A stretch of 64,000 nt of DNA from Thuidium tamariscinum (taxonomy: Eukaryota; Streptophyta; Bryopsida; Hypnales; Thuidiaceae): NCBI GenBank assembly GCA_947034885.2, contig OX344749.2, positions 51,055,682-51,119,681 on the forward strand, in the 5' to 3' direction. Positions 1 to 60,924 of the stretch are shown one piece after another; within the stretch, counting starts at the first letter, position 1; each line of letters opens with the position of its first letter. Position numbers and translations under genes: made by a program. Below the pieces are notes generated by a model, which searched no databases, was not told where the DNA came from, and worked only from the letters and a program-made list of their open reading frames with translations.

Positions 1-118
1 GATCCTACGGTTAGATCCCAAGAGAAGTATTTTTTGGTTTTCTTATAGTGAACGCAGCAAAAATGGCAGTTTTGAGTGGTTTGTAACAAAAAAATGGCCT
101 TGGTCCTTTAGGGGTTAA
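1..118. mobile_element. Right end of a TTAA-flanked element (cut by window edge)
   Basis: The stretch ends in GGTCCTTTAGGGGTTAA. Its last 100 bases (a 'tcctacggttagat' block, then 'aaaatggcagttttgagtg') match the right ends of the elements at 780-1741 and 20729-21651. The left part lies outside the window. No coding capacity is visible. Confidence 0.6.
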
Positions 119-779
119 CAATATAGGGAGAGATTTATAACCATATTTTATTGCAAGACATTCTCAACTCTCAAATTGTAACTTGTAAGGGCCTAATATT
201 TCAATTTCTAAACAAATTAGAAAAATGTATCACCATACTTTCTACAATTCTACAGTTGGAAGATGATGACATTCAAGATTGCATAAGAGGATGAGTCAAA
301 TTTGAAAATGATGCAATTATACTTGAAAAAAAAATTGAAAATGTGAAAAATTATAGAATCTTTCATTTGAATGTAAGTGAATCTGTGAATGTGAATATGA
401 AAGAGTGTACTTCAAATAATTTTATCCCTTACTAGTTTGCATTTAGAAATATGTAAAGAATATATATTTTTTCTATTAAAGTAGGGTGTATACATTTTTT
501 AAATTAATAATGTGTTGAATCCTTGGATCATTCATCAATTTACTTTCACTATTTATTATTTTATATGACACCCATAATGCAAAAATGATGAAGAAGCTTG
601 GGTTTAGGGTTTAGAATTTAGGGTTTAGGGTTTGGGCTTGTCTACACTCTACAGAAGTGGACGTCGATGCTATTCGGATAGGGTGTAGGGTTTAGGACTT
701 ACTTTCTTTAAATGTGCATAATGAAACTCAATTTTACACATACATTGAACATTGGATGCTTTTTCCAACACTTCCCATT
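119..779. other. Intergenic, no gene seen
   Basis: AT-rich sequence with no open frame of interest. The only distinct item is the telomere-like tract near 600-635. Confidence 0.6.
600..635 (+). repeat. Interstitial telomere-like tract (TTTAGGG)n
   Basis: About five units of GGGTTTA, slightly degenerate, occur in a row. TTTAGGG is the Arabidopsis-type telomere repeat of most land plants. The tract is short and internal, so it is either a relic of break repair or an isolated telo-box cluster, not a chromosome end. Confidence 0.75.
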
Positions 780-1741
780 TTAACCCTTAAAAGACCGCAC
801 TGTTTTTTTGGGATGTATAGAAATTTTGGGTAGGTACCTACGAGCGGGGACTTTTAGATCTGAGGCTGAAATTTGAATAGAATGTGGGGGCAAGGAAGAT
901 CTTTCATATGCAACAAATTTTCATGACATTTGAAAATACAAGTCAAAAGTTATAGCCTAATATGTTATTTTTTTTCATAACTGGGCATTTCATGCAAATT
1001 AGAGAAAATCACTTTTTTCATAAACAAGAATTCCACAAATTGTTTTTCTAGAATTTTGTATACGCGTGAAGTTTTGAATCATTCCATTTTGATGAATGAG
1101 TCAAAAGTTATGTGGATTTTTTGTTTTTGGTTAGTTTTGGATTTCCTACTCTAAAAATAAACTTCGAAATCCTTTATCTTACCCAATTTCCAATATTCTT
1201 GGACAAAAATAAAATCGTAGGATGTAGATACATTATTACAACATTTCAAATTTTCGACCATTGAGAATTTGGGATTGGAAATTTTCAATTCCATATTTCA
1301 ACTATAAATAATTTAGTATGTTTAATCATTCTCTACTACTACATACTTACTATTTTTTTCCTATATGTTGTACTATTCCAAATGATTTGAAAATTTTCAA
1401 GCATGTGCCCAACTTGTCTAGGAAAACAAATCCAAAGAAGCACCACCATTTAGGTCATTTTTTCATAGAAATGTGAGCTTGTGAAGTGCACCTGCCTTGC
1501 TTTTCACAGAGTCAAAAAAATGATTTTAGTTAATTTGAATGCTTATATCTTGCAATCCACTCGGTGGAAATGTTTGAAATTTTTACTACATGTTTTTGAT
1601 ACTATATAATACAATATCCTACGGTCAGATATGTCAAAAAAAGTTTTTTTCCAAAAAATTTGGTACTTGTACTAGAAATGGCAGTTTTGGTCTTTTGGAG
1701 CGCTTTTGGTGAAAGTATATTGACGGTCCTTTAAGGGTTAA
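780..1741. mobile_element. TTAA-flanked terminal-inverted-repeat element, 962 bp
   Basis: The left end reads TTAACCCTTAAAAGACCG and the right end, reverse-complemented, TTAACCCTTAAAGGACCG, so the termini match over 18 bases with one mismatch. TTAA sits at both edges and may be target duplication or part of the repeat. No transposase is visible, so it is non-autonomous. The interior is related to the other TTAA elements listed; for example, the block around 1077-1140 recurs inverted near 54245-54320. Confidence 0.7.
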
Positions 1742-2170
1742 AGCTTTAAATATGACTTCTAGGAACCCAATGTTGAGTTTGGACTCGTGGAATCCAATGT
1801 CAAGTTTTCACTTGTGGAATCCAATGTTGAATTTGGACTTGAAATCTGAGCAGTCTTCGGCGGAGGTTAGTCGGTCGGCAGGGCGGACGCCTTTGTCGGA
1901 CGCCCACTCGGTCGTTAGGGCGGACGGGCAGGGCCAAAGGGAGGACGCTGGGCGGTCGGAAGGGCGGATGGCGAAATCAGTAGGGCGGTCGGCACTCGGT
2001 AGGGCGGACGGCGAAGTCGACAAGGCGGACACTAGGTGGTGGCAAGGCGGACGAGGACATCGAAAGGGCGGATGCATAGCGGGGCTGTCAAACGCCAGGT
2101 CTGGCCGACGACTTCCGAGGCGGACGGGCCTGTCGTCGGACGACCCGAGGCGGACACCAAAGGTTCGACA
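1742..2170 (+). repeat. GC-rich array of GGCGGACG motifs, left copy
   Basis: From about 1855 to 2165 the sequence turns abruptly GC-rich. It repeats GGCGGACGG-like words at irregular 10-25 base spacing. The outer flank (about 1752-1850) holds a short degenerate tandem repeat containing 'ggaatccaatgt'. Open frames across it are repeat translations, not genes. The same motif occurs reverse-complemented at 3680-3996, on the other side of the 346-bp tandem array. Confidence 0.75.
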
Positions 2171-3569
2171 ATTGAACATATCTCCTAAATTCCTATCCTT
2201 CTCAATTTCAATTTGTCTTGAAAATCCCCAAATACTTTCAATGCATCCTAATGAAGCATATTGACATTTGAAGTTGGACAAGTAACCTCCAATTTTATTT
2301 CTTTTTGGGTTGTAAGTCAAAACCATCAAACAATTGTACAAAATTCTAAAAGTGTCCTTTGCTTTTGAAAATTTGCAAGTAGGTGTCCTACATCATGCCA
2401 AGCATGTATAAAAAAATTTAGAAAATTTTATTTGCCCATGCAAAAGTTGTGGCAAATATACTAAATTGTGACTAATGTGACTAATGCCCCAAAGAGCATT
2501 AGTCACATTAGTCACAATTGAACATATCTCCCAAATTTCTAGCCTTTTCTTTTTCAATTTTTTTTGAAAATCTCCAAATACTTCTAATGCATCCTAATGA
2601 AGCATATTGACATTCGAAGTTGGATAAGTGACTTCAAATTTTATTTCTTTTTGGGTTGTAAGTCAAAACCATCAAAAAATTGTACAAAATTCTAAAAGTG
2701 TCTTTTGCTTTTGAAAATTTGCAAGTAGGTGTTCCACATCATGCCAAGCATGTATAAAAAAATTTAGAAAGTTTTAGTTGCCCATGCAAAAGTTGTGACT
2801 AATATACTAAATTGTAACTAATGTGACTAATGCCCCAAAAGAGCATTAGTCACATTAGTCACAATTGAGCATATCTCCCAAATTCCTAGCCTTCTCAATT
2901 TCAATTTTCTCTGAAAATCTCCAAATACTTCTAATGCTTCCTAATGAAGCATATTGACATTTAAAGTTGGACAAGTGACCTCCAATTTTATTTCTTTTCG
3001 GGTTGTAAGACAAAACCATCAAAAAATTGCACAAAATTCTAAAAGTGTCTTTTACCTTTGAAAATTTGCAAGTAGGAGTCCCTCATCATGCCAAGCATGT
3101 ATAAAAAAATTTAGAAAGTTTTAGTTGCCCATGCAAAAGTTGTGGCTAATATACTAAATTGTGACTAATGTGACTAATGCCCCAAAAGAGCATTAGTCAC
3201 ATTAGTCACAATTGAGCATATCTCCCATATTCCTATCCTTCTCAATTTCAATTTTTAAAAAAAATCCCCAAATACTTCTAATGCTTCCTAATGAAGCATA
3301 TTGACATTCGAAGTTGGACAAGTGACCTCCAATTTTATTTCTTTTTGGGTTGTAAGTCAAAACCATCAAAAAATTGCACATAATTCTAAAAGTGTCCTTT
3401 ACTTTTGAAAATTTTCAAGTAGAAGTCCTTCATCATGCCAAGCATGTATAAAAAAATTTAGAAAGTTTTAGTTGCCCATACAAAAGTTGTGACTAATATA
3501 CTAAATTGTAACTACTGTGACTAATGTTTCAAAGGGCATTAGTCACAATTGAACATATCTCTCAAATTC
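2171..3569 (+). repeat. Four tandem ~346-bp units, each with a 22-24 bp-arm hairpin
   Basis: Units begin at 2171, 2517, 2863 and 3211, with a partial fifth from about 3548, so periods are 346, 346, 348 and 337. Each unit ends in an inverted repeat. In unit 1 the arms 2464-2487 and 2496-2519 pair perfectly around an 8-base loop; the arm core is GTGACTAATGTGACTAATGC. The hairpin is intact in units 1 and 3, nearly so in unit 2 and eroded in unit 4. No coding frame is shared between units. Confidence 0.85.
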
Positions 3570-3679
3570 GCTTAGGACGTTGTAGGTACACGAACCTGAA
3601 TCCAATAAATATGTGAATGTTAAAGGACACTATGAGCCCCCCTAAGACCCAAGGTTGAGGGTTGAAAAATAAAAAGGGG

Positions 3680-3996
3680 TCCGTCTAAATCCGTCCGCCA
3701 TCCCGTCCGCCGTCTTGTCCGCCAACGCACCGCCCGTCCGCCCATTCCGCCGTCCCGTCCGCCACTTGGTCCTCCCGTCCGCCGTGCCGTCCGCCAAAAT
3801 TCCTGCCGTCTGCCACAATACACACCGTCCGCCTGCCGTCCACGCAAATTCAATGCCCCCCCGACCGTCCCGCTTCCCCATACTCGACGTCCGACAGCTC
3901 GTCCGCCGGGAAAAACGCCGTCCGCCACGGTAATTTGGCCGTCCGCCATTCTACCCAACGTCTGCTGCGCCCGTTGCGTCCGGACGTCTGGACGTC
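3680..3996 (-). repeat. GC-rich array of GGCGGACGG motifs, right copy (inverted)
   Basis: On the plus strand it reads CCGTCCGCC over and over, which is the reverse complement of the left array motif at 1855-2165. It ends in 'gtccggacgtctggacgtccgg', itself partly palindromic. The two open frames through it translate the repeat and are not considered genes. Confidence 0.75.
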
Positions 3997-5400
3997 CGGA
4001 TTTTGGGTGTAATTTTACAAAAGACGTAGAGTCCGCACAACCCTGAGTGAAAGTGCCATTTTAGTAGATCGCACTAGAAACTTGGACGTAGTCACAGAGA
4101 ACCAAGGAAAGGAGTTGATCAAGGAGACTCTAAAGACGTCGCCCATGCGTGAGAAGGACATAGGAAGCAGCTGCAGCCTGAGAGGTAGGCTGCACACACT
4201 TGTAAGTAAATTCTCTTACTTGACGCCATTTGGATTATATTCTTCAAACTTCAATCCTGATTAATTGTACTAGGAGTAGGGCATAAGGAAATGGACTTCA
4301 TTTTCGGATTCAAGATTATTATCTATAACCAATTCACTTATGTATTTTTGAACATAATCTTGAATAGTTCTAGACATTTGATAGCTCTATTACAGACTCA
4401 TTGATGGTTGCTTGTCATCAATATTGTACGCTACCTCATTCAGATTCAAAACCATTTGCCATTGCAAAAATACTTCCGTAGAATTGCTTCACTCAAGATA
4501 TGTGTTGAAGTACTCCATTCTACTCATAACCTAAACCTAGAATATTAATGTCATTTGAAATGAACTCTAGGTGTAAAAAGGAATTTTAACAAAGTGTTAT
4601 CCTTCATTAATGAATTGTATACAATTAAAGAGATTGTGTGTACCAACATATAAAAAACAAATCAAAATTTGTAGGTATTATCAAAATCTAAAAGACTCTG
4701 ATAAATGCTAATTTTTCCTTAAGCCTCTGATTAGAGATTGAAGTATGCGAAGGAGTAAGGAAGAAAATCCAGAATGAATTCTTTTATATTTAATAACATG
4801 CCATATGGATTAATGTTGCTAATTGAAATACACAACTAGTCCACATATGAGAAAATAAATGATGGTAGGAGATGTGCTGTAAAATAGGTCAGTCCAAAAA
4901 ATATTAATTATTTAAACATGGTCCTTTTCAGTTCTCCTCAATAGTTTCTCTAATAACAAATAACAAAAAACCATAGAAAATTTCAAACCCTGTAGCATGT
5001 GAACTTGAATATCCAGGAATGAACGTCCCATAGTAATAAATAAACAAATTGATACAATGTATACTATAGTTCTTTTGCGATGTAGGCAAAGGAGCTAAAT
5101 ATTTTAACATGTTTCATGGCCCTGTGGCCAGAAATTTAGATTAGTTTGTCATATTTAAATGCATCATGAGAGGTGGCCACTATAATATATTTTCTTCAAA
5201 AGATAGATTGTCATATTAGGAAAATACAGTTCCAGATAAAATTATCTAATTTCAAGGAAATTTCATTTCAGTATGTATCTCAGTTCAAGCAGTATGAAAA
5301 TCAATGATGATGTTTACCTAATGATGGAAAATACTCATAAGAAGTCTAAACAAGTGACTATGACCTTAGAGCTTTCCATTACAAACAATGTGTTAGATAT
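3997..5400. other. Intergenic, no gene recognised
   Basis: A stretch open on the plus strand (about 4010-4190, followed by a possible GGTAGG donor) would encode roughly 60 mixed residues, but I recognise no family and no partner exon. The remainder is AT-rich without structure. Confidence 0.5.
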
Positions 5401-5684
5401 TCCACTGTAAAATTAAAACCTAATCACTTAAAAGACCCCAAAACCCTAGAAGAGCTTTTGCTAAGCCTGAACCCTTCTGGTCGTCTGTGTCGTATCTCTT
5501 CTTCCGCTAACCTACTCCCGTTTCTTCTAGAGCTAAAATTTCATTATTGTTGAAAGTGGAAGACTCTATCTTTGCAATATGGTATGCAGAAGACAACCCA
5601 ACTGTGAGATTCTTTGTGATAATGTGGTGAAATTTGAGCACGTATTGAGGTTCTTTGCCCTGTTTGTGGAAGGGTGAAATTGCA
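5401..5684 (+). promoter_or_regulatory. Promoter/5' leader-like stretch before candidate exon
   Basis: Base composition rises from AT-rich to balanced here. It carries AAACCCTAG (about 5440-5449), the telo-box word common in plant promoters of housekeeping and replication genes, then a pyrimidine-rich leader. It directly precedes an ATG-initiated exon at 5685. Promoter activity is inferred only. Confidence 0.35.
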
Positions 5685-5834
5685 ATGGGGACTCGGCGGA
5701 AGACGAGGAGCTCCACGCGTACTGGGGATGGCAGCGACGGCGATGGGAGTGGGAGCGAGGAGCGAGGTCCAGCCCTCGAAATACCTGCAATGGTTGCTTC
5801 AAACGATGCGGCAATGGCAACTGCTGTTATAGAG
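5685..5834 (+). CDS. Candidate first coding exon (50 codons) of the ParB/methyltransferase gene
   Basis: An ATG opens 50 codons ending GAG followed by GTATGT, a canonical plant splice donor, in phase 0. The peptide starts MGTRRKTRSSTRT, is basic, then rich in Gly/Ser/Asp, and ends AMATAVIE. The next plausible phase-0 acceptor with a long open continuation on this strand is TAG|ACC at 13694, which opens the pseudogene described there. Joining the two is an inference and would require a 7.86-kb intron. Alternatively this is the first exon of another gene. The local CpG content is higher than in neighbouring DNA, as expected at a gene start. Confidence 0.4.
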
Positions 5835-6299
5835 GTATGTAGTCTCTGAAATTTCCGTGACCTGGCACTTCAATTCCCCAAATCTGCAAGAGCAAATTTA
5901 GGTATTGATTGTGAGCTCAATCACTTCGGAAGTAGCCATCTGTCATACTCCGACTCGATTCCTGTGTGTAAGTTTGAATTTTAGGGTTCAGTTTTGGTTG
6001 CCCATAATCTCACAAAGAGTACAAACTCAGATGAGTCTCACGAGTGATGCAGGAGATCATCTTCTCCGTGGTTGCGTATTGGTATCGTCAGATAGAAATG
6101 AGGATTGAATATTTAAATTTTCGAGGGTTGCGTTAATTGAGATTCCGGATTTGGTACCTTGCGATCGAATTCGAGCTCCTTAATTTGTCACTGGATCTTT
6201 AGTCTGTGGACTTGTATAGTGTGAATCATTCAGTTGAATCCCTGTGTGATAAAAGAACAAACTAGATTCGGCTCAATGCGGGCACAAATTCCATTTCTT

Positions 6300-6790
6300 C
6301 TCCCGTGAACTAACTTCGATAGAGTCCCATCGGACTCCGTTCAGCGCCGAGGGCTCCCGCGAAGGCGCGAACTGACTTCGATGGAGTCTGATCTGACTCC
6401 GTTCGGTGTCGTGGGCTCCCGCAAACTAAATTCGATGGATTCCGATCTAATCGTAAAATCGATTTAATCTCAATCGATCTGATGTCGATCCAGTCCAATC
6501 TGATGTTAATCCAGTCCAATCTAATGTCAATCCAGTTCGATCTGACCGACAAATCAGTTTATTCTCCCACAAACTAACTTCGATGGAGTCTGACTAGACT
6601 CCGTTCGGCACCGAGGGCTCCTGCAAACAAAGTCTGATGTGTCTCCAATCGGCGCCGAGGACTCCCGCGAATTGACTTCGATGGAGTCCGCCTGACTCCA
6701 TTCGGCACCGAGGGCTCCCGCGAACTGACTTCGATGGAGTCCGTTTGACTCCGTTCAACGTCGAGGGTTTGTTCTCGGATGCCTTTGGTT
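6300..6790 (+). repeat. Minisatellite with CGGCGCCGAGGG words
   Basis: A degenerate unit of about 50-60 bases recurs six to seven times: 'cgaactgacttcgatggagt', a variable middle with 'gactccgttcggcgccgag', then 'ggctcccg'. A shorter sub-array (about 6470-6540) repeats a 24-base word with 'gatccagtccaatctgatgt'. An 80-codon frame on the minus strand follows the repeat and is not a gene. Confidence 0.75.
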
Positions 6791-7371
6791 ACTTCGCAGT
6801 GATCTCACGCTTCATTCTCCGAGCGTTTTTATCAAGTTCGAGACCGCAGATTCTTGCCATCGGCGCCGAGGGGACTCCCCTCACGTATGACTGAGTTTTG
6901 AAGATAGTCGAAGCACATGATTTACGTGATCGGGATTGTGTGTAGATTTCACAACCTGACGTTTTTGTTGTAGAGAGGCTTCACTGAAGGATTGAGAACT
7001 TAACGTTTCACAGAGCCACCATCAATGCAAATAGTAGTCATCTACCTTAGTGGACTATCTCCAGAAATTGAAACTTGACACATGGAAGTGCAAAAATCTT
7101 GAACTCTGACACTCCATTCTGTGGGAATTGGAGGCCTCAAAACATCTTGACCTTAGGTCAAGTTTTCGGGTTCGTATCTCCAATTGGGATCTACTCGTTG
7201 AACCCAATGTCGGACACCTCTTGATATAGCTCCTGAAATGCTTCAATTGACCTGTTAATCAATTTTGTAGTGTAAGCTTGATAAAATCTCTGCGAACAAT
7301 GAGTACCATTAGTACGCTAATATTGGCAAAACATTCCGAGTTAATTCCGTCGCCTTCCAATCCTCACTCAA

Positions 7372-7960
7372 ACTTGAGTCTCATCTTGAAATTGATAGTC
7401 TAACATGCGGTCTTGTATCCTGAGTGACTTTGGTGTATGGATGACACCGAAGCCCCCTCGGCGCCGATGGGACCATATCACCACGGACTGTTGACCACAT
7501 CCATGGTTAATACTGAGATTGGTAATTAGATTGGATACTTTGTGACTTCTCGGAATGATTTTAATGGGTTTCAAAAGTCGTAGTGGCCTCCCCTCGGCGT
7601 CGATGGGAGTCAGCCAGTCTTGACTGGGTGATATCCGAAATCACGAGTTTTCACAATTCGAGTCCAACCCCAGAGAAATTTGATTCGCATCTTGAAAATT
7701 GAATCTTGAGCGTATGTGGTGTTCGGGTGACACCGAAGTCCCCTCGGCGCCGATGGGACCGTATCGGCAAGGAGTATGTGACTTCACCCATCGTAGATAC
7801 AGACTTTGGTAATTAGATTAGAAACTTTGTGTCATCCGGGTTTTTTATTCCTTGGGTTTCGGGAGACATAGCAACCCCCCCTCGGCGCCAATGGTAGTTA
7901 GCCAGTATTGACTGGTTGATTTCCATAATTAGAAAATGTACACAGTTCGATTCCAGTTAG
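7372..7960 (+). repeat. Two ~290-bp direct repeats
   Basis: Two adjacent copies share landmarks in order: 'gacaccgaag' followed by CCCTCGGCGCCGATGGGACC (7443 and 7731), 'ttggtaattagatt', then a second 'CCTCGGCG' word followed by 'agccagt-ttgactgg'. Offset is about 288 bases. Copies have diverged, so the duplication is not recent. The GC-rich CTCGGCGCCGA word is better kept than the sequence around it. Confidence 0.7.
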
Positions 7961-8375
7961 ACTGGTCATTCTTTCCTGCACAATAGCATTGGTAATATCC
8001 ATTTTATATATCGGCACGGCTTGATTCAGAATGTGTCCTCGGCGCCGAGGGTATCTTTGGTCCCTGTGAGCGTTCCTAACTCCACCCTTGAGCTAAGAGT
8101 TTTTCACACGGGTTCTGTGTCTAATTGAGTTTTCTTTCTAATTGGGTATTAAAAGAAAGCCTTCCAAGCAATAAACTCTTTTAGTCACGTTTTAAAGTGT
8201 TCTTTAATCTAATTTGTGGTTATAATTTTATCTGTTCTATTCTAAAAGTCAACCAAGCAATTCTACTCTACTCTATTCTATCAATTGATATTGCCTAAAT
8301 CTAATTCCAAGCATTTGGTAAAAAGAAGCTTAACAATAAAATAATGAGGATGAAAATCAAATGTGAGCGATTTAC

Positions 8376-8471
8376 CTCCTCTGCGTAAATCTCCATGGTC
8401 CCGTCGTCAAACATCATCATGTGTAAATATTCCCCTACGACCTTGCCATCGAAATCATCCCGGCTCTCCAT
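8376..8471 (-). CDS. Exon-like block, 32 codons, unknown protein (copy 1)
   Basis: On the minus strand an ATG opens 32 codons ending GAG|GTAAAT, a good splice donor. The peptide starts MESRDDFDGKVVGEYLHMMM and continues to FDDGTMEIYAEE, so it is acidic and methionine-rich. It differs from copy 2 at a single base (Lys to Glu at codon 10), although surrounding DNA of the duplication differs by roughly 15%. I find no clear downstream exon and do not recognise the family. It could also be a conserved regulatory block that happens to be open. Confidence 0.35.
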
Positions 8472-9429
8472 CTAATCCATGATAATTCTCACGTTGTTGG
8501 TCAATTAATTCTGTCCTGTTTTAATAGAAACTAAATGTTATGTAGCGTTAATTTAATTGCGTAGGTCCTTTAATTCCTAGATCCCCGGTAATTAGAAAAT
8601 ACTGCAATTTAATTAGTCTACCTAGTTTGGTTAACAAATGTTTTATTCTAAGGAAATAAATAAAAGTTAAAGTTTAGTTGTTTTAGTTGTTTTTTCCTTT
8701 GGTTCTAGATTAATATCCAAAATCCAAATTGATTTAATTATTTAAATCGGAAATTGTCTTCAAATCTTTTCAAATCTAATTAATTTTTGGATTTGTTTTA
8801 ATTCTAAAGAAATTGGTTGGCAATTTGTTTGTTTCCCTTTTGGCTTATTAGAATATTTTAATCAAAAAATCATCTTCAAATCTTTTCAAATCTAATTAAT
8901 TTTTGAATTTGTGTTAATTCTAAAGAAATTGGTTGTCAATTTGTTTCTTTCTTTTTGGCTTATAAGACCTAATAAAACAAAACTAACAAAATCCAAACCT
9001 TCTAAGAATCTATTTAATGACTAGCTACCAAAGAATGTGGAACATTTCTAAAGAACGAGAATATTAGTAATAGTGTTATTCCTAAAGAAATTAGTTTTTT
9101 ATTCCCAAGGGTCAACCCCCAAGAATAAGAATCTAGTTCTATAGTATTATTCCAAAAGAAAATCAATTGTTTATTGTAATTTGCTTCACATGATGGGTTT
9201 CGTCACCTTAATCTTCCTAACTACATCTTCTTCTCTCTCATTCTTGCTTAGTATGTTTTTGCAAGTTTTTTGTGGAGAGATGCGGCTATGGAGTTTAGGA
9301 CGTGTAGAAGATGATAAAGTATTTTGTGACTCCCAAATGTTGGATTTTAGTTTTAAAAACAAAGGTGTGGCGTCAACTGCCAACCATGAGTGTGATTAAA
9401 ATCCAAGTTTTTGGAGTTTCAAACGTACT

Positions 9430-9604
9430 GTGAGTCCCTGGAGTGCTCCCTGTTCTCCCCAGCGACCCCCGACTATCCCCAGCGACCTCCCGACTTTCCC
9501 CAGCGACCCCGGCTCCCCTGCAACCCCGACTCCCCAGCGACCCCGACTCCCCAGCGACCCACTGGCTCCCCGATACCCGGCTGGTCCCGTACCCGGCTGA
9601 CCCC
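9430..9604 (+). repeat. GC-rich minisatellite with CCCCAGCGACCCCGACT unit
   Basis: Seven or so degenerate units of 13-17 bases rich in CCCCAGCGACC occupy a sharply bounded C-rich tract. It sits exactly before the second copy of the 1.3-kb duplication. Confidence 0.75.
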
Positions 9605-9915
9605 TTGTGAGTGCTCCTAACTCCACCCTTGAGCTAAGAGTTTTTCACACGGGTCTTGTGTCTAATTGAGTTTTCTTTCTAATTGGGTGAAAAAGAAAGC
9701 CTTCCAAGCAATAAACTCTTTGTCACGTCTTTTGAGTGTTTCTAATCTAATTTCGTGGTTATAATTCTTTCTATTCTATTCTAAATTCAACCCAACAAGG
9801 CCCTATTCTATTCTATTCTATCAAATGATGTTACCTAAACCTAATTCCAGGCATTTGGTAAGAAGAAACTTAATAATAAAACAATGAGAATAAAAATCAA
9901 ATGTGAGCGGTTTAC

Positions 9916-10011
9916 CTCCTCTGCGTAAATCTCCATGGTCCCGTCGTCAAACATCATCATGTGTAAATATTCCCCTACGACCTCGCCATCGAAATCATCC
10001 CGGCTCTCCAT
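9916..10011 (-). CDS. Exon-like block, 32 codons, unknown protein (copy 2)
   Basis: This is the second copy of the block at 8376-8471: the same length and start, the same GAG|GTAAAC donor, and one amino-acid difference (Glu at codon 10). The identity extends about 35 bases upstream of the ATG on the minus strand, so a leader may be included. No downstream exon was found in either copy. Confidence 0.35.
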
Positions 10012-11089
10012 CTAATCCATAATAATTCTCACGTTGTTGGTCAATTAATTCTATCCTGATTAAAAATTAAATGTTATATTATGTAGTGCTTAATTTAATT
10101 GCGTAATTCTGTTAATTCCTAATTCCCCGGTAATTAAGAAATACTGCAATTTAATTAGCCTACCTAGTTTGGTTAGCAAATATTCTACTCTAACGAAATG
10201 AATGAAAGTTAAAGGTTGGTTGTTTTAATGTTTTTTCCTTTGGTCCCAGATTAATATCCAAAATCCAAATTGATTTAATTATTTAAATTGGAAATTGACA
10301 TCAAATCTTTTTCAAATCTAATTAATTTTTGAATTTGTGTTAATTTTAAAGAAATTGGTTGGCAATTTGTTTGTTTCCCTTTTGGCTTATTAGAATATTT
10401 TAATCAAAAAATCATCTTCAAATCTTTTCAAATCTAATTAATTTTTGAATTTGTGTTAATTCTAAAGAAATTGGTTGTCAATTTGTTTCTTTCTTTTTGG
10501 CTTATTAGACCTAATAAAACAAAACCAACAAAATCCAAACCTTTTAAGAATCTAATTAAGAACTACCGACCAAAGAATGTAGAACATACTCCTTAGAATA
10601 AGTGCCAATTCAATAGTAAGATTCTAAAACAATTAGTTTTAAAAGGACGTGGGGTCAACGTTGAGAATAAAGAATTAGATTTCAATAGTAAGATTCTTAG
10701 GAAATTGATTTTTTAATGCCAAATCCTCTCACGTGGTTGTCTCTCCCTTAATCTTCCTTCCTTTAATTCCTTCCATCCCTCTCAATTTTGCATTTAGATT
10801 GTGCAAATTTTGTTGAGAGTTTGGCTATGGAGGTTGGAGAGAATAGAGGTTAGTCTAGTGAAATTCCAAAGTTACAAATGTTGGATTTTTGATACTAAAT
10901 CAAATGGAGAATGGGATAGTACTCTACTTCCTTTGATTTTTTATTTAAACCCAATTTTTGTAACACTACCTTAAGAGTGGAGTTTGCAAGTCAACTTTGT
11001 TAGGAAAATACTTACTTGTGTGTGTGGTTGTTGGTATTTTCGTTAGTGAGTTTGGGACTCTTAGTTTGTGAGTTTGGAACTCAAAATGG

Positions 11090-11262
11090 CCTGGCCTGGA
11101 CCAGAGCCTCAGCCCGATCGCACAGAGCCCAGCCGTCACACAGAGCCCAGTCGGCGCCACGTGGCGCGGCGCCAGTGGCCGGGTCGCCCGCCCCTTGCCG
11201 CTGGTCTCTCCCCACTCCAGGCCGCTGGTCCGCCTTCGGGCTGGTCCCTGGACTTGGAATTT
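11090..11262. repeat. GC-rich island
   Basis: An isolated GC-rich tract with repeated 'cacagagccc' and 'ggcgc' words lies in AT-rich DNA, after the second copy of the 1.3-kb duplication. Open frames across it are not supported as genes. Confidence 0.5.
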
Positions 11263-11625
11263 TTGGTTTTTTGGACTCTAATTCTTGGACTAAATCTACA
11301 CTATCTGATGGCTATTGCTAGTGTCTCCTATGTTTGCAATTGGTACTGAGTAATAATCACGGGGTCCTTACCCACCATGTACTAATCTCAATTGAAAAGA
11401 TAGATGAAGTCTCTCATGCTCAAGCGTTTAAAGAAAGTGGTATAGGCTTTCGAATTTTGAGGTTTAAAGCCTTTTTATCCTTTCTCGAGTCAACCTTGGG
11501 GTGGACCAATTGCAAGTAACTTCCTCCTTTTATTGAGGAGTTTAATTCTTCCAAGATGTGAGTGATGGTTCAAAGCTTCGCTGTCTTACGAGTTTTTCCC
11601 CGAGTATCTTAAGAATTTTATTCGC

Positions 11626-11742
11626 AAAAGGAGGTACACATGACAGTGTTTAAATCGAACTTTCACTTTAAATTCTTAAAATTTCTTAGTATTTCAAGAT
11701 CTTACAACCAAAGGAGGTACACATGACAGTGTTTAAACCGAA
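11626..11742 (+). repeat. Short direct repeat of ~28 bp, ~84 bp apart
   Basis: A 28-base word, starting AAAGGAGGTACACATGACAG and continuing to 'tgtttaaa', occurs twice, followed each time by 'cgaactttc/g'. This is a small local duplication with no coding role seen. Confidence 0.7.
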
Positions 11743-13693
11743 CTTTGGCTTCCAATACTTGAAATTTCCACGAGTTGTTGGTCCGCTAGGTGGTAGAGTA
11801 ACCTTTATAAAAAGAATGTGAATCTCATGAACTAAATGAAGGGGCCCTAAGCCTTCAAATATGTGACAATACAAAACTTGGTCCAAGTGATGCCCCGACC
11901 ACGCCAGTGGCATAAATGAAGAGAGTAACGAAGTGTCGGTGCGAGAAATAAGGGTACTGGCAACCTCGAGGGGGGCCCTTATATACCCGTGGCTGGGCCC
12001 CTCTCGGTAATTGCTAGTGAAAACACTTTGTTACTTTCTATCCTAAACTACCCTAATGTAATTCCAAAATATTAGTTGTTTAATGGTGGAAATTTTTAAA
12101 AACATCCCCATTTTGTCAAAGAAATCTTGGCCAAATCAAATCCAAGATCTTAACCCAAAATATTTTGGAATTAACCCTAATTTACGTAGATATTTTGCAA
12201 ATTAACCAAAAGTCATTTTGAAAATTGTCTTTCTTTAGCCCAAAGATGGCTTTTTACGCAAGAAAGAGATCTTGACCAAATCCAATCTTTGATTTTTCCA
12301 AGAGATATTTCCAAAATCACTTCTAATTAACCGCAATTAACGATTAAAAAGTCAAACTAAGAGCTGACCCTCTCTATCTTTTAGGGAACAACTCGAATCG
12401 GAAAACCGTCTGCGCCATTGTCTTCAGAAGACCCCAATTAGCCTAAGGGACCCTTACCCCTCACTCCTAGGCCATTTGCACGCCCAAATTGGAATTACGG
12501 TAACTCCAATTAAAAGTCAAAAATCTAACTTTTAGGATTTGCGCAATTTGATGAATCTGTCAGGCCAGGGTTGTTAGGAATGTCCGTGAGAGTAAGGAAT
12601 GACTCCTTATTTGCGACAATCGGACATCATTCGCTCCTGATACGCCGGTCAACCTGCCGCCAATTTGTAACTTCCAGTGAATTTCGATGTCGATGCCGGT
12701 TTTGGTAGTTGGGAATGTCGGAATGTCTTCAAACTTGACCGGGCGCTTATTAAGCACACAAAAACCTATCCTAATTTTTAATGAGATTTTACCGCATCAT
12801 AAGTAATTTCTATGAATTTACGAACATTTCTATGTGCGGTTGACTTCCCATGGAGTCAACGTGGAATTTCGGAAAAATCCGAAATAAATTGGGTAACATC
12901 TAGGGCACTCCTAGATTCTTGGTGTAAGTCCCACGCGACCTTGCACCTTTCTAATTTTAGTAATTTGGAATTATTTTGCCCAATTGGACAATTTAATTCC
13001 CAATGCCCGGGAATCTTGGACAATTGTTTGATTCTTGTTCGCTCCTGGCATGCTCCTACCCTTGGAACACCTCTCTGTAGTCTTCAATCTCCAATCCTCC
13101 ATCTTGTATCTCGTGAAGTTCGAATTCTCCAAATCCGTTGTAGTGGTTTTACCTTTAAATCCAACTTGTTTCAAAATTGAACTTAAGCCCTGGTAACTCT
13201 CCCACGCTCGTAGTAGACACCTTTAGCTTAGTCAGTATGTCACGTGCATCCTTAAGAGGTTGACTTTGCATAGACATTCGCTAGGACTGACTAACTCTCT
13301 ATTCCTTATTTCTCTCGGAATTACTAAATCTTTACATAAACTTGCTTTGGAGACTTAGAATGATTCAAATTTCTAGGATTAGGAATTTTCCACCTTCTAA
13401 GTTGGTTTTCCACCATTTTGGCATAGACTGACACCAAAACTCCCTCAACACTCTTTTTATGTCTTTTCCTTGAATATTTTGGCTAATTTTCGCTATTTAA
13501 TCGCGAAAAATGGACCCAAAGTCTTGAGTGCCATCTCGAGGGCTCACAGTGCCCTAGGTCAGTGATTAGAATTTACAAGAGTGTTTTATCTCAATGCAAG
13601 TATCCATATAATATTTGTTTAATTCATTAATCCTCTTAGCCAATACCTAATTATGCCTTTCGTTAACATTTATTCATTTGCATTGTTGTGTAG

Positions 13694-16600
13694 ACCCCAG
13701 ATGTAATAGCTAATCCTTCAGAAGTCCGTCCTTCGAATTCTACTCATGTATCGGGGCATGAAGACATAAAGGGGAGCGAGACTGACGAGGAGATGGAGGC
13801 CCATGAAGAAATCATGACTGAGGATGCTCTTAGAAAATCTCAGAAAGTGAATTCTAATGCATCTATTGCAGAATTGCAAATGAAACCTCATTCTATCTCA
13901 CGCCTCATGATTCCTTATTGTCGTATGGCCGTTATGCCCATGGTCAGGCCAATATTGCAATGTAATCTCACTAAGTTGGAGAACGCCTTTGTGACTGGAT
14001 ATAGAGATGGATCTACAATTTTTTATGTTTCCGTTACTAATGAGTAGGGTATGGAAGAGCAATTTTCAGATGTGGAGAAGAAATCATGGGGGCCACATTG
14101 GCATTCTGAAAATGACGTCTTCAATGACCTTTTGAGTAAATCTCCTGGCTTGGAACATCTTCAGAATTCGAAGTTTTTTGTGTGTGATGGTAACCATCGA
14201 CTTCTAGCATGGACCGCATACATCCAGAAACATCACAGTGACACGAGAGAGAAGCATATATCTGTGGACTCTATCATTCTTGATATCAAGGGCAAAGTCA
14301 GTGCTGCCATGCATGCTATGCACGACACCAACAAGTATGTCCACTTACTTATTCCATTGATCATTATAGTGTAATTTGATTGGCTTGTTATTTGTATTGA
14401 ATTATTCATCTAATTGCATTTTTTACTTGGCTTCAAGCAGACCGAGAATTCGTTCATCAAGACTAGTTTAGTCCATACACTGTATCATGTTCGTAAATAT
14501 GGAGCTCTACCTTTGGAAAGGTTCTCTGAGCACTTAAGTTCGTCTGAGAAGGCCCAATGCAAGTAGAACTTGAGGAAAAGCTGGTACTCTATGTCCATAG
14601 AGGTTTTTACATCCTTTATCTTTCGAGTAAGGCTTTTTGGATACCTTATACTTGTGCTTTCTATCATTCATCTTTACTCACAAATTGTATCTCACTTGCT
14701 TTTTTGAAATTTGAATTCATATGCAGTATGAAATTTCAGCAGTTGCTGATGTAGCGGTACGGATTTACAAAGAGGAGACAGCAGAAGATGAACAAATACT
14801 TGAAGGCATTTGTAAGGCTATGAGGGTTGGAAGCAAGGAGAAGTCATCAAAGTTGATTCAGAAGATGGGGAAGCTTGTAGCTGTTGCGAATCCTATACTA
14901 GGCAACGAATGGCTACAAGAGGTATGTTCATTGCACAGAGGTCACTTATGTTTCATCCTATCATCAAACTATTCTAATTATCTTGTCTTTTTGGTAGGTT
15001 GAACGTCATTGGAGCTCTAACATTACCCCGGAGATGGCCCTCGAGAAGCTCCAATTGATTGCAACATGCAATGTCAAGCCTGAGCAGAAGGTCAAATGGC
15101 TTCGTTGGTAGAACTCCTCAATTCAGACTAGAGAAGCACATCGGTTCCTATTGAAGCCAGTGGGTGAAAATGAGCTTAAGACCTTTCTTACAAAGGCTTG
15201 TTGGTATGCAGGGGTAAGTATTTTTATTTAATGCAAATTCATTGATGTTTTTGGTTTAATTGCAGTTTTGTTGGTATGGTGCTTGATCTTGTGTTTTCAT
15301 AAATAATTTATGTTGTTTTCCTGATATCTTTTTCCTATTCTTATAGATTGAAGATACGGGCACTGAAATGTTTGACAATTTTGTCAAGAAGGATCGACTA
15401 CACTTGACTATGGACTCTCCTCAAGAGCCAGAGTCTTTCTCTGATTACCTAGAGGGATGGAGAATCAGGGTTTGGGATCATGCTTTCTTGACGTACTTCA
15501 AAGAACATGAGGTGTTCAGGAAGTCAGATGACTTTAGGAAACACAAGGGCGCTGACCTTGTTGTTAAACGGGTCCTTTATCGGTGCATATTTCTTTCTTA
15601 ATTGACTTTTTATTTTTTGTTTTGAATTTGATCATGGTCATTGAATGCTTCATTTTGTAGCTCATGACTCATTACTTTTTTTACAGATATTTCAAGTTCA
15701 AATTATTGACAAAGGGAGGCATAGCCAAAAGTGATCTTCCGTTATTTCTTGGATTTTGGGTGGATGTTTCTTCAGAGCACTGTATTTTCTCAAGTGCCCA
15801 AATGAAGTGGTGGACAACTGCCCATCTCAAATCTTGTGCATGGTATTTAGAGTGTCCACCAGAGTACACACCACTTCCGGAGGAGCACCTCAAGCGTTCT
15901 ATCAACTCCCAAAGAGTTGAATTGGATTTGGGGCAATTTGCCGGTCTTGATGAAGATGCCAAGGCCAAAGCTATGAAGAAGAAAGAAGAATTGGAGACGA
16001 AAATTGCTCTCAAGAACTCTAAGACTGTGGACAAGGCAAAGGAGAGAAGTTCGAAGAAGTCCAAGAAAGTTGATGACTCCGAAAAGGCAACTACAGCTAA
16101 ATCGAAGGGAAAGGCTTCGAAGGTACAAGCTCCACTCCATCTACCAAGGATGAGAGTTCTCAATACCAGTAGGCTCATTCTCGTGGTACTAAGCGAGATG
16201 CGGATTATATATCTTTGAGTGAGGATGGCATGGTGCATGGTCCTTCAGCTCTGGAATTCCTCAGTGATTCGGAGATTTCTATCCATGAGTTTATTGTAAA
16301 CTCTTCCCTTGCTACAGTACCAGGAGATCCATTACCACAAGTGTATCACGACGTTCTACACTTCGTTGATCAGGTTGATATTATGTGTTTTCACAAAGTA
16401 TTTTGAGATTTTGTTTCTTTATTGAAAGTGTGCTTTTACTAATTGTGTGAATTGTTTTTCAGCACAAAAGGTCTAAGGTTAGGTTTTTCAAGGGAGTACA
16501 AAGTGAGAAGCCTCACTTGGATTTAATGATTGCAGACATGTCTGAGGGTTTACCGGTCCCAGACTTATCTTTACCTCCTACTACTATTCCAAAATGGAAT

Positions 16601-18052
16601 ATGGAGTCTCCTACTTGGCTTCAACAGGTATTTGAATTTGCAGATGGCCACCTTCATGATGATGGAGCTCTCATCATCATTCATCCCTTGATGAACACGA
16701 CTAGAGCCAACATTCTAGGATATGCAAAATCCTATTCTTTTCAAAAGAAGAAGGACTAGTGGGGGATAAATCGGCTTCATCTTACTTCACCCGTCTCTCC
16801 TTCCTCCACGGTATTCACATTGAAATTAAATGTTTTCTTCTATGAATTTCTTTTTTGATGAAATTCAAATAGGTTCCATTTTCTGTTGTTTGCAGTTATT
16901 TTTAATGTCATTTAGAAAGTAATTTTTTTAGAGTATGCTGTTTTAAATTCACTGTGATTATATCTTGATGTCATTTTCTATCTTTGTTAGTTTTGATTCT
17001 ATTATTTGTTTTTTACTTCATTTTTATAACTTTCAACCAATTGTTTTTGCAGACACAACGGTTTGGAATTGTGTTATTGGTTAGGAAGTTCGATGACGGC
17101 AAGCTTCCTAAATTCCAATTTTAAGCATGTCCAAAGTTGAAGGAATTGGGGGTGGATGTTGCTCTTGACGACATCCTTCAAAATTATATCAAGAAAGAAA
17201 CTCCAGCTATGGACACCAACTCCAAGCCTTGGAGAGGTGCATGAGAGAAGGATCCCCGTTTCCTTCAGATGTTGATTCAAGCTTCATCTCTCCCTAGCGA
17301 TGTCGTTATGGATTGTACTACAGCGACAGGTATTGTTTATGTCTTCTCAATTTCATTTTGTTCTATAAACTCTTGAAATTTAGTGCATTCTTCCCTCAAT
17401 TTCTAATTCCTTCTCTGATTCTTTATCTATTATCAGGGGCCTCTATTCATGCTTGCAGGGTTTTGAGTAGGCATATTATTGCACTTGAAGAGGACAAAGC
17501 CATCTTTGATGCGGTTTTGGCACCAATGATTCAAACAGAGTCTACTGTTATAGCTTCATCTAAAGGAGTTACAGTGATTTTAGACGATCCAGATGCAGAG
17601 GAAGTTGAAGTCCCACTCATCGTGAAGAAATCTCGTTTCAGTAAGTAAGTCTGTCCATCTATTGTACTTTTATTCTAAAATGTGAGTAGAATTCATTATC
17701 AATTTATTTGCAACCGCATTGCTTCCTTCTTTTAACATATATAAGATTTTAAAGTTGTTTCTAATTTTCTACTTTGTATTTGCAGCATGATTTCTAGTGA
17801 GACAAGTCATCGACCGTTTTTACTTTACCTGGATTTTTCCCAAGCCCGAAAAAGTCCTATGTATTGCCATCTTATGCAAAGGCATTAGCTTCATTATTTG
17901 CTTCTACAGATGACTTTTCTATAAGGAGCAAGTCTAGAACTTCAGTTCCTATAGTTTTACAGTATATGGATGTCACAGCCGTAGAATCAGAGGGCACATC
18001 ATCGACGGATAGTAGTGACCATTCTGAGTCTATGACTATATTGTCATCTTGA
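13694..18052 (+). pseudogene. Decayed gene: ParB/Srx-like segment plus beta-class DNA methyltransferase-like domain
   Basis: Exons judged from open frame and splice sites: 13694-14334, 14441-14602, 14727-14921, 14998-15213, 15347-15571, 15661-16373, 16463-16810, 17053-17329, 17437-17640, and a poorly defined last exon to 18052. About 1,050 codons are covered. The first exon encodes CDGNHRLLAW (14183-14212), resembling the GxHR signature of ParB/sulfiredoxin folds. Exon 15661-16373 has a lysine-rich, NLS-like linker. Exon 16463-16810 has IADMSEG where N6/N4 methyltransferases have DPPY, then DDGALIIIHP. The exons at 17053-17640 have PWRG, KDPRF, then VVMDCTTATG and IALEED, matching the SAM-binding motif that follows the catalytic motif in the beta class. 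Stops at 14045, 14564, 15109, 16170, 16757, 17122 and 17242, a phase mismatch at 14334/14441 and a frame break near 16115 show decay. Role when intact: unknown, presumably nuclear and DNA-linked. The family assignment is by motif only. Confidence 0.6.
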
Positions 18053-20728
18053 TTTTGTTTTTTTTATTACTCATCATTTAGCTGATATTTGCTTCTATTG
18101 TTTTGCATGTGTTTTGATTTACTTACAAAGTTACCAATTTGAATCTAAAATTGTTTTACTTTGTATTTCCTCTCTCTTTCCAATTTTAGGAATTATACAT
18201 GAATTACTATTCACCAGATTTTGAGAATACGCATTATTCAGTACATTTTTGATATTGAAGCCATCTTCTACAGGTCTTTAAATGCTATAGACATAGGTCC
18301 CTCAATAAATTCTTTCTAAATATCTCCTACCTCCAGAGTAAATAGTCATTAGAAGTTATCTGAGAACATATTTTCGGTTTTTAGCCAGATGTTCATTCTT
18401 GAAAGATTTTTTAAAATTTATAGTAAGAGCATGAAAAAATCAAGTACAATATGGGAGAAATTTATCCAGTTCTGGAATCACTGGTCATTCGTAACCACTC
18501 ACATTTTTGTCTTAGAACTAGCTTGATAAAATATTTTTCTCCAATTTCTAGATTATTTTGATCAGTCAACTTCTTGGCGCCTAAAACTACCATAGGAAAT
18601 CCTAAGGCTATGATGAATTTTTTATTTCTTAAATGGTTGTAAGTGTGGGGCTCCCCTCGGCGCCGAGGGGTACTACGAAACAAGTTACCATTAAAAAGTA
18701 AATTTACATAAAATAATGTCATATGATTTCTGAGAAATTATAATTTGTCAACAATTTTTTCCTTCTCAATATTCGGCAAAGTTCAATATAGTCCTACTAA
18801 TCCAAAAATTGGAATAAGAAATAAAAGGGTCCGAAATCATTTATTTTTCTCACTTCACATCAAAGTCTCGTCAGCAGAAATAGGTTTGAATAATATTCTT
18901 TTTATTAACACTACAATCTCCAACAAAAAAAATAGGGTATAAAAATGAAAAATGTATTCTTACAAATACAATGGCTTCCTCCTTATGAAAAGGGAATACG
19001 AAATAAAATACAACTTCGCATCTACCTATAGGTGTGAAGCAATATATAATGGTGTTATAGAATAAATATTATATTCACCAAGCACAAATATCGCCCCTCA
19101 AAGAGGGTTTCAAATGAACATTTCACTAGCACGGGTTTCAGCAGGAAATGAAATGGGGGGGAAATGGATATATCTATTCCTACTAAATTAATATCTTCTT
19201 TCTAAAAAGGTTCAAATGGAATATGAAATACAAAATAACTTCTCGTCATCTTTGGATGTGAACTTAAGAGTTCTCACAAGACTAATTAGGGTGTTTCTGA
19301 AAATAGAGATTTTTACACCAAGATTTATTTCTTTACTTTTGATTGTCAATTACTAAATTGTTCAAGGGACCACGGTGATAGGTCCACGGTAATAGGTCCA
19401 TGTTAATAGGCTATCAAATTTATTTTAAGTTAATAATATTTGGCAAAAAAATTTAGATGGAATCTTTAAAAAAGAGGTAGGCTCACAGGCTCACAAAATA
19501 GCAACCCTGATGGGAGGTGCAAATCTCAAACTTGTGTACGAATCCCCTTTGTGTGATTTTTGAAGTGGTTGTTCAATGTAGTGCATTTCATTCTCCAACC
19601 CTTGTCAATCCCCATGTATTCAAGCGTTTGGATTCCCAAGCTGGGACATGCATTGTCAATGAAGGTCACCAAATTGAGAATGGCCACATAGTCTTGTTTC
19701 AATACAAAGAGATCATGAAGGAGCCACTAGCATTGAAATTCACTAAGGTGATATGTTGGTGATCATTTATTTGAAGCTAGAGACAATTGTTGTTATCCAT
19801 GAATAGTTTTTCAAAGTTGTATCTATCCATTGCATGGATTTTGTAAATTAAAGCCAATGGCTAAGTGAATAAGTTGTTCACTATTAGTTGCAATAGTAGG
19901 TAAGAGGCACCATTGGCAATGGTAGTGCAATGGCTTTGAAACTACCTAAGATTGCATTTATAGTGAACATTTTGCAAATAAAGAGATTATTACATGAATG
20001 ATCATTTTCAAAATTGTTGTCATGAAATGTCATGAAATGAAGAGCAAATCAATTCTCTTACACTAGAAACTTTAATGTTTGGATAAGCCATGTTTCCTTT
20101 TATAAAAAGTTTAATTAACAAGTTGCATTCCAAAGATTTAGGGGCCAAAGAACTTTCTTTTAAAGATGTTTCAAATCAGCTTTGGTTTAAAATTGGTTGT
20201 GAAACCTAAACCTAAATAATTAGGAGAAGCATATAAAAGATGATAGTAACACTAAATTTGCAATAATTAAAATATTTGCTCTAAAATTATAGGACGATGT
20301 ACTTAAGTAAATTAATCAAAAGATTCTTTAGTTGAATATGTTAAAAATATAGTTGAAGACTTTAGCCTTGCTTTGAATATGAGTATTTTGAAGCAATTTG
20401 GGGTCTTTAAACACAAATGAAATTTAGGGATTAAGGAGTTACAACTCTTACTTATAAAACTTTAATCTTTTTCAAAATTATTTCCATATTATAGCATCTA
20501 TATTATATATTCTTGTGTGATTTTATTACAAGATGTACTAGTGCAAAAAAAAAAGATTTTGAACCTTTAACAAAGACATTGATGGTATTATAGAATTAAG
20601 CAAATATCATATTATTGTGAAAATATGATAATAATTTTTCAAGTACAATAGAAATAATTTAGAATTGTTGCAACTACACTTTCATTGCATAATAAATATA
20701 AAATTATCTAATTTACAAGAAATAGATT
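18053..20728. other. Intergenic, no gene seen
   Basis: AT-rich. Small items: a single CCCCTCGGCGCCGAGGGG palindrome near 18655, the same word that fills 6300-8060; three short 'ggtccacggtaata' repeats near 19375-19405; and 'ggctcacaaaatagcaaccc' near 19487, which looks like one terminus of the MULE-like family (see 30155-30385). A frame at 19517-19762 is not recognised. Confidence 0.5.
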
Positions 20729-59300: not shown

Positions 59301-60924
59301 AGTAAGGTCACGATGAAAAACTCGATAATCCTTACTTCTTATTCCAGAACTTACGGATTGGCTTGCAAGCGCAACAATATTCACCGAGCTCGACATTCGA
59401 CAAGCTTATCATCGGGTGCGTATAGCGTTGAGTCATGAGTTCAAGACAATGTTCAAAACTTGATATGGTTTATTCGAATATTTGGTTATGCCTTTTGGAT
59501 TAACCAATGCACCGGCTCAATTTCAGTCCTATACGTAGAATATATTTGGTGATCTCTTAGATATTTCCATAGTGATATATTTGGATGATATTTTAATTTT
59601 TTCGAAGACATTAGAAGGATAGCGACAAGTGGTATGAGAGGTGTTACAATGACTCCAAGAGCATGGACTTTACACTAAGGAGTCAAAATGTGAATTCCAT
59701 CAGCAATCGGTAGAATTTTTGGGAATGGTGGTTTCTTCACAAGGGCTCGAGATGTGCCAAGATAAGGTTTGAACTATCCAAGAATGGCCCATTCCAAAAA
59801 CACTAAAAGAAGTCCAAGCCTTTCTTGGATTTGCCAATTTTTATTGCAAGTTTATATGTGACTATTCAAAAATTGCCATGTTGCTTACAAATTTGACACA
59901 AAAGGGACAACTATTTGTATAGACATCGCAAACTAATCTTGCATTTATAGAACTCAGATCCAAATTTCTACAAGCACTAGTATTAATTCATCACAAATTT
60001 GATCGACCGTTTGTGCTTGAGACTGATGCATCGGATATGGCAATAGGGGGGGATTTTATTCCAGTATATTGAAGATAGAAAGCTCCATCCTTGTACATTC
60101 CGCAACTCAAAGATGTCACCAACAGAACAAAACTATGACATCTATGACAAGGAGCTCTTGAACGTGGTTCTGGCCTTTCAAGATTGGCGCATCTATTTGG
60201 AGGGGTCTCCATATGAGATCTAGATATTATCTGATCATAAGAATTTGGAGTGTTTCCTGACTACTAAGCAATTGAATTGGCGACAAGAGCGTTGGTCCAA
60301 ACTTTTATCAGCATTTCATTTCGATATCCAACATCAATTGGGCTTGTTGAACGGAAGGGCAGATGTTCTCTCATGACAAGTAGATCTCATAGGAAAGCAA
60401 AGTGGAGGTAAACGCCCTCTTTTACGAATTGCAGCGCTTGAGCTTTGCCAGTCAGTGTGGAGTGATGCTTGTATTATTAAACACTTAAAGCTGTCCATGT
60501 TGGAAGATCCTACATTGGAACCAATACTTGCATTTTTTAGAAGAAGCTCCGATAAAGCTCCACCAAATATCCACCATACACTTCAAGGCTATACTTTAAT
60601 TGATGGAATTTTCCATTTTTAGAAATTGATATATGTCCTTAATGATGAAGAGTTTCGCCGTCAGATTTTGAAGTCCAGACATGATGCTCCTGCAGTGAGA
60701 CATTAAAGGCGAGTAAAAACTTAGGAACTAGTAACAAGAGTATTCTATTGGCTTACTCTCCGATGATATGTATATCATTACGTCTATGGGTGTGATACGT
60801 GTCAGCATTCAAAATATATCCATCATGCCCACTATAGTTTGATGCAACCGATTCAGGCAACTCATGCACCATGGAAATCAATCTCCACCAACTTTATTGT
60901 TAAATTACCTAATACTATAGCCTT

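Follow-up and report, generated by a model that had tools for sequence, protein, structure and literature searches.

A decayed accessory gene of a multicopy plant DNA transposon with a methyltransferase-like domain and a candidate palindromic binding array

The spliced gene at positions 13694-18052 of the window, i.e., of the 64,000 nucleotides that were analyzed (C1:51055682-51119681 of a genome of 363,211,507 bases in 19 contigs), is a decayed copy of the accessory gene of a DNA transposon that measures about 14 kb, has terminal inverted repeats, and is present in many copies. The gene encodes a segment with the motif CDGNHR, followed by a half that is related to beta-class DNA methyltransferases, and in the element it is arranged head to head with a second gene, whose product is divergent and SWIM-like. 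The best explanation of the whole, to which we assign a probability of about one half, is that the accessory protein would bind a palindrome array of its own element and act in a manner similar to VANC, that its methyltransferase domain would serve for binding, and that the window copy is a relic.

The exon borders of the window gene (Table 1) were derived from splice signals and homology rather than from transcripts, and most of them are approximate. All peptides quoted in the original prediction, which had been made from the sequence alone, were found (CDGNHRLLAW, IADMSEG, DDGALIIIHP, PWRGA*EKDPRF, and VVMDCTTATG joined over an intron to ...IALEED), and the proposed phase-1 intron between 17329 and 17437 has fitting GT...AG borders. 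The copy contains six in-frame stops and one frameshift and is therefore dead, in agreement with the decay that had been predicted. A blastn search of about 1.3 kb upstream, which is a weak test, revealed no coding exon 5' of 13694. The gene is not a product of chance, because the same exons recur genome-wide. The best 150 of 545 candidates for the ParB-like exon and the best 150 of 561 candidates for the methyltransferase exon were scored, with E-values of at most 4.5e-23 and 2.1e-16, respectively. For at least 70 of the 150 listed ParB-like matches, a methyltransferase-exon match follows downstream in the same orientation at a distance of up to 10 kb, based on a position list for 149 of the 150 methyltransferase-exon places. 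Intact copies had been expected elsewhere in the genome, and 128 of the 150 listed ParB-like matches have no stop inside the match.

Table 1. Features of the transposon copy in the window (positions of the window).
Feature	Position	Strand	Evidence or remark
Left non-coding part of this transposon copy, preceding the accessory gene	4045..8063	.	sibling matches
Palindrome array, 10 cores TCGGCGCCGA with 0-1 mismatch	6341..8048	.	candidate binding array
Unrelated inserted repeats, not part of the gene	8064..13552	.	gap in sibling alignments
Exon with ParB-like CDGNHR motif	13694..14334	+	homology and splice signals; stop TAG at 14045
Exon, borders approximate	14442..14614	+	74% identity to E1 homologue over 65 aa; stop at 14564
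Exon, borders approximate	14724..14923	+	66% identity to E1 over 67 aa
Exon, borders approximate	14999..15213	+	76% identity to E1 over 74 aa; stop at 15109
Exon, borders approximate	15347..15576	+	E1 homology, splice signals
Exon, lysine-rich linker, borders approximate	15685..16377	+	frameshift near 16130
Methyltransferase exon 1, motif IV position	16463..16810	+	mostly DxPE in relatives, DMSE in this copy; stop at 16757
Methyltransferase exon 2, bearing motif X and the SAM motif I	17053..17329	+	PF01555; DpnA and CcrM alignment; stops at 17122, 17242
Methyltransferase exon 3, after motif I	17437..17645	+	3' border approximate
Probable last exon	17786..18052	+	52% identity to E1 over 56 aa; no single open frame
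Single TCGGCGCCGA palindrome without mismatch, 3' of the gene	18657..18666	.	
Right terminal inverted repeat end GCTCACAAAATAGCAACCCTG	19489..19509	.	near-identical end in 6/6 E copies and 4/4 siblings
Presumed target-site duplication ATGGGAGGTG	19510..19519	.	left partner not found

The structure of the whole element was read from the young subfamily E. All six copies are about 99% identical over about 8.25 kb to a common right end, and the three copies that were read whole are about 99% identical over approximately 13,994 bp. E1 has a length of 13,991 bp; its inverted ends of 35 bp agree in 32 positions, and an identical 10-bp target-site duplication (TSD) is present on both sides. 10-bp TSDs also flank E2 and E3, in the case of E2 only if the last base is A, not G; with this proviso, terminal inverted repeats (TIRs) and TSDs were found in all three copies of which both ends were read. 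The window copy shares its right end (...AGCAACCCTG) with all four siblings, one of which reads ...CCCTA, and the flanks beyond are unrelated. At its left end, no TIR was found within 4 mismatches, only three poor TSD look-alikes without an adjoining TIR. Similarity to the siblings ends at 4045, at the border of another high-copy repeat. The stretch 4045-6110 matches upstream regions of sibling copies at 74-89%, and 7233-8066 matches parts of the siblings L002, L004, L005, and L007. The alignments are interrupted by the inserted repeats (L004 matches to 8066 and again from 13568, L007 to 8064 and again from 13552), and 10000-13549 is a high-copy repeat. Repeats of the type GCTCACA occur at element ends (L061 8185-8238; window 19480-19500) and are possible binding sites of the transposase.

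On the strand opposite to the accessory gene, E1 contains two long open frames of 693 and 445 codons, one of which has a SWIM-finger-like pattern of cysteines and histidines, with Pfam scores for the SWIM zinc finger that are both below the cut-off (E 0.95 and 0.15). The core of this second gene was scored genome-wide at the best 144 of 826 candidate places. For at least 82 of the 150 listed ParB-like matches, a second-gene match lies up to 30 kb upstream and on the opposite strand, compared to a random expectation with a mean of 1.9 and a maximum of 8 in 200 trials. Other placements among the listed matches were upstream on the same strand (4), downstream on the opposite strand (2), and downstream on the same strand (1), and 68 of the 150 ParB-like matches are without a second-gene partner among the matches listed. 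Seen from the other side, at least 101 of the 144 listed second-gene matches face a ParB-like or a methyltransferase match. In the window copy no second gene was detected. The divergent SWIM-like protein is probably the transposase of the element. Pfam yielded no match to a transposase family for this protein, and its core, which may be too divergent, did not match the MULE DDE transposase domain.

The family is under purifying selection, as indicated by low dN/dS values. The median was 0.18 for the ParB-like exon (49 of 136 pairs, dS 0.1-1.2, from 17 of 30 loci, four having been dropped for internal stops and nine as the 90-codon frame overran the exon end) and 0.22 for the methyltransferase exon (48 of 120 pairs from 16 of 30 loci, twelve having been dropped for stops and two as they lacked the motif pattern); both values are biased downwards, because only open copies were used. 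A donor of the accessory gene was not identified in the viral, prokaryotic, and phage searches: tblastn confirmed none of 278 pattern-matching stretches in viral contigs and none of 75 in prokaryotic contigs as close relatives, and a phage tblastn returned 16 records, the best of which (1e-4) was a phage of 634,780 bp with a stand-alone DPPY methylase.

From its sequence, the accessory protein is predicted to carry a beta-class DNA-methyltransferase-like domain with D-x-x-E as motif IV. PF01555 matched five of the six subfamilies (best E 4.1e-6), E1 scoring 24.6 bits, just under the curated cut-off of 26.7, and PHROG methyltransferases matched all six (best 1.4e-6). A profile of the six subfamilies found CcrM (1.5e-4) as well as DpnA (1.4e-5), the latter mainly through motifs X and I; positions 17-229 of the 277 in the query are colinear with CcrM 31-249. 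In this alignment, DPPY of CcrM lies opposite D-x-P-E of the family and motifs X and I come afterwards, which is the beta order that the original prediction had proposed. Against six phage proteins that combine ParB and methyltransferase (ParB-MTase), hhalign gave 8e-6 across the region of motifs X and I. All six subfamilies have retained the region of the SAM motif, the lysine of motif X, and the initial D of motif IV.

The catalytic motif IV of the beta class is (D/N/S)PP(Y/F/W). Motif IV was inspected in 34 copies, many of them closely related (L031-L060 and L070-L073, window included). It has the form D-x-x-E in 29 copies, 25 of these with D-x-P-E, while K replaces E in four copies and D is absent in one; an aromatic fourth residue is found in none. 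Motif IV had rightly been noticed as unusual in the window, where it reads DMSE. In contrast, DPPY is kept by all six phage ParB-MTase proteins that have a methyltransferase part, three of the nine fetched proteins having been left out as they have none.

The fusion with a ParB domain, which had also been predicted, is borne out for the methyltransferase half, while the ParB half turned out weaker than claimed. The kinship of the DGNHR segment with ParB is a lead, not a finding, suggested by one motif and weak matches. PF02195 (ParB_N) had no match in a six-frame search of the genome; control matches were obtained in 10 of 14 genomes. Weak matches to DUF1015, which we take to be kin of ParB, were seen in 4 of 15 rows (best 0.0046), to the ParB-like phrog_1033 in 3 of 15 rows (best 0.004), and to DndB at 0.077 to 0.19; they come from three libraries and lie on the DGNHR region where a position was shown. 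DndB belongs to the ParB superfamily according to the available text of the source (PMC10853773). The exon also weakly matched the unrelated Pfam families DERM (0.026) and zf-Di19 (0.045). With hhalign, DGNHR was aligned on AGHGR of phage ParB at a non-significant E of 0.29, the search of PDB sequences with the exon profile gave seven unrelated matches (best 0.056), and a phage tblastn with the exon gave none. The predicted structure had a pLDDT of 33 alone and 45 with 15 rows, and a PDB fold search with this poor model (pLDDT 45) returned nothing at E <= 0.001.

Between the two divergent genes lies an array of short palindromes, a candidate target similar to parS or to the sites of VANC. In the window the cores start at 6341, 6605, 6649, 6702, 6860, 7458, 7594, 7744, 7882, and 8039, i.e., ten in the stretch 6200-8060 versus a Markov mean of 0.04. 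In E1, 11 matches with 0-1 mismatch were counted versus a Markov mean of 0.1 for the element; ten of these precede the gene, at 7423-8643. Because the pattern was chosen for its repetition in E1, these figures describe the array more than they test it. The closer subfamilies have about ten palindromes 0.5-2 kb upstream of the ParB-like exon, with flanks that are close to CCC...GGG by subfamily and with varying spacers. Palindromes are present in the 1.5 kb upstream of 27 of the 30 ParB-exon loci of these subfamilies; the others are L006, L029, and the window copy itself (L001), in which the inserted repeats separate the array from the gene. Genome-wide, 348 cores were counted versus 42 for a reversed control and 41 spaced pairs versus 0. 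The palindrome counts are not independent, given the choice of the pattern and the relatedness of the copies. For 33 of these pairs, a listed family gene follows within 12 kb downstream, and for 32 the distance is no more than 2 kb. The remaining eight are situated away from listed family genes (C2:19094532, C2:25663650, C3:4630319, C5:19360470, C6:17322669, C7:11770717, C8:19708796, and C9:4120423) and perhaps represent non-autonomous or decayed elements. On contig C1, 12 family matches are listed, and 27 of the 47 cores are situated no more than 12 kb from five of them. No core was found at this distance from the other seven, which are more distant members of the family. This would agree with a specificity that has diverged, but it also makes the link between array and protein less certain.

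We propose that the accessory protein would bind the array that precedes its own gene, (CCC)TCGGCGCCGA(GGG), and, once bound, would act on the chromatin or the transcription of its own element. Its most likely role would be that of a sequence-specific anti-silencing or self-marking factor working like VANC, with a methyltransferase domain that may bind SAM or DNA and would not be a standard DPPY-type enzyme. A more specific version, which we regard as doubtful, is a plant transposon with a parS-like system, in which an accessory protein composed of a ParB-like module and a methyltransferase module with an altered catalytic site would read the ten-copy array and protect or mark the element against silencing, with site and protein co-diverging between subfamilies. 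It is possible, though less likely than not, that the accessory protein does something else and that the array serves as a promoter, an enhancer, or a site of the transposase, to be recognized by a factor of the host or by the transposase itself. In favor of this are the location between divergent genes and the core GGCGCC, which presumably resembles plant E2F/ERF-type sites; against it, the roughly ten copies adjoin the accessory gene, and the terminal GCTCACA repeats already offer possible sites for the transposase.

It seems unlikely to us that the protein actively methylates cytosine at N4 or adenine at N6 and so marks its own element, a role that has been put forward for the algal proteins. 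The residues kept in all six subfamilies align with CcrM and are in favor of activity, as is the prediction of 4mC or 6mA for the algal transposon proteins in the available text of that source (PMC12477816), but the aromatic residue of DPPY/F/W is lacking in 34 of 34 copies, whereas the phage proteins have retained the whole motif. It also seems unlikely that the DGNHR segment has a fold other than ParB/Srx and carries the motif by chance. The lack of any significant profile or fold match, including PF02195, and the similarly weak scores of unrelated families argue for such a fold, while the coincidence of the weak DUF1015, phrog_1033, and DndB matches on the same region argues against it, as does the existence of phage proteins and, as far as their published descriptions go, algal proteins with the same domain order. 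Last, the gene had been predicted to be of prokaryotic or viral origin and domesticated by the plant. Splicing and the low dN/dS would agree with domestication, but dispersal over at least 150 places (the best 150 of 545 candidates), inside elements with TIRs and TSDs, makes it highly improbable, and for the window copy we reject a domesticated host gene.

ParB-MTase accessory proteins have been published for transposons of brown, green, and red algae (PMC12477816). For example, the available text describes a protein of 1104 aa with ParB-like and N4/N6 methyltransferase parts opposite the transposase in the 21.5-kb element Sola1-1_Ec32 of Ectocarpus (PMC12477816). The shared features are the domain combination, the orientation opposite to the transposase strand, and the location in a giant DNA transposon. 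However, the algal elements belong to Sola-1, whereas the family described here, which was compared with the algal set by description, has 10-bp TSDs, a SWIM-like second protein, a plant host, the D-x-x-E motif IV, and a palindrome array. The phage ParB-MTase proteins (L084, L085, L087, L088, and L090) likewise have the ParB-like segment N-terminal to a beta-class methyltransferase, but they comprise only 415-504 aa and have DPPY, in contrast to the long middle region and the absence of DPPY in the family described here. Mutator-like elements, as far as described in the available text (PMC6446971), have TSDs of 8-11 bp (10 bp in three of three copies here), a SWIM-type finger (below the cut-off here), and extra open reading frames that are sometimes antisense, but a MULE transposase domain was not detected here and the inverted ends have only about 35 bp. 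The bacterial-type N4-cytosine methyltransferase of bdelloid rotifers and the one mentioned for Marchantia sperm are host genes according to the accessible part of the source (PMC8885841). In a partial coverage of the literature by titles and beginnings of abstracts, no land-plant case of a ParB-MTase transposon protein was found. The family described here is a plant variant of this transposon gene with an altered motif IV and, as a new feature, the candidate binding array, while the architecture itself was already known.

How transposons escape from silencing is an open question, and VANC is a plant transposon protein that has been shown to do so; its anti-silencing was demonstrated for VANDAL elements in Arabidopsis (PMC10398659, PMC13317346), and its targets form tandem repeats (PMC10398659), as stated in the accessible parts of these sources. 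Both VANC and the protein described here are accessory proteins of plant DNA transposons with short repeated motifs in the non-coding parts of the element, but anti-silencing is demonstrated for VANC and only inferred for the family described here. If the proposal is true, this would be a second anti-silencing accessory protein, and the candidate site together with the near-identical young copies would make it directly testable. In addition, the range of ParB-MTase transposon proteins would widen beyond algae to include a plant, which is probably a moss, and the conservation of a methyltransferase domain that lacks DPPY raises the question whether this domain binds instead of methylating.

Several minor observations were made. 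Among the 26 stops listed in copies of the ParB-like exon, 20 are TAG, and decayed palindromes of the array are often altered at CpG; both would fit deamination of methylated cytosine, although they stand without a control. The window did not yield an Rfam match at the gathering level. Positions 1-4045 of the window are a high-copy repeat that includes a tandem array (347 bp, 4 copies) at 2168-3547, and the open frames at 57779-62715 presumably are retrotransposon pieces, which they resemble. Contig C11 (17.5 Mb) harbors 44 of the 150 listed ParB-like matches and 35 of the 144 listed second-gene matches, compared to 7.2 and 6.9, respectively, expected by length, and could be a sex chromosome.
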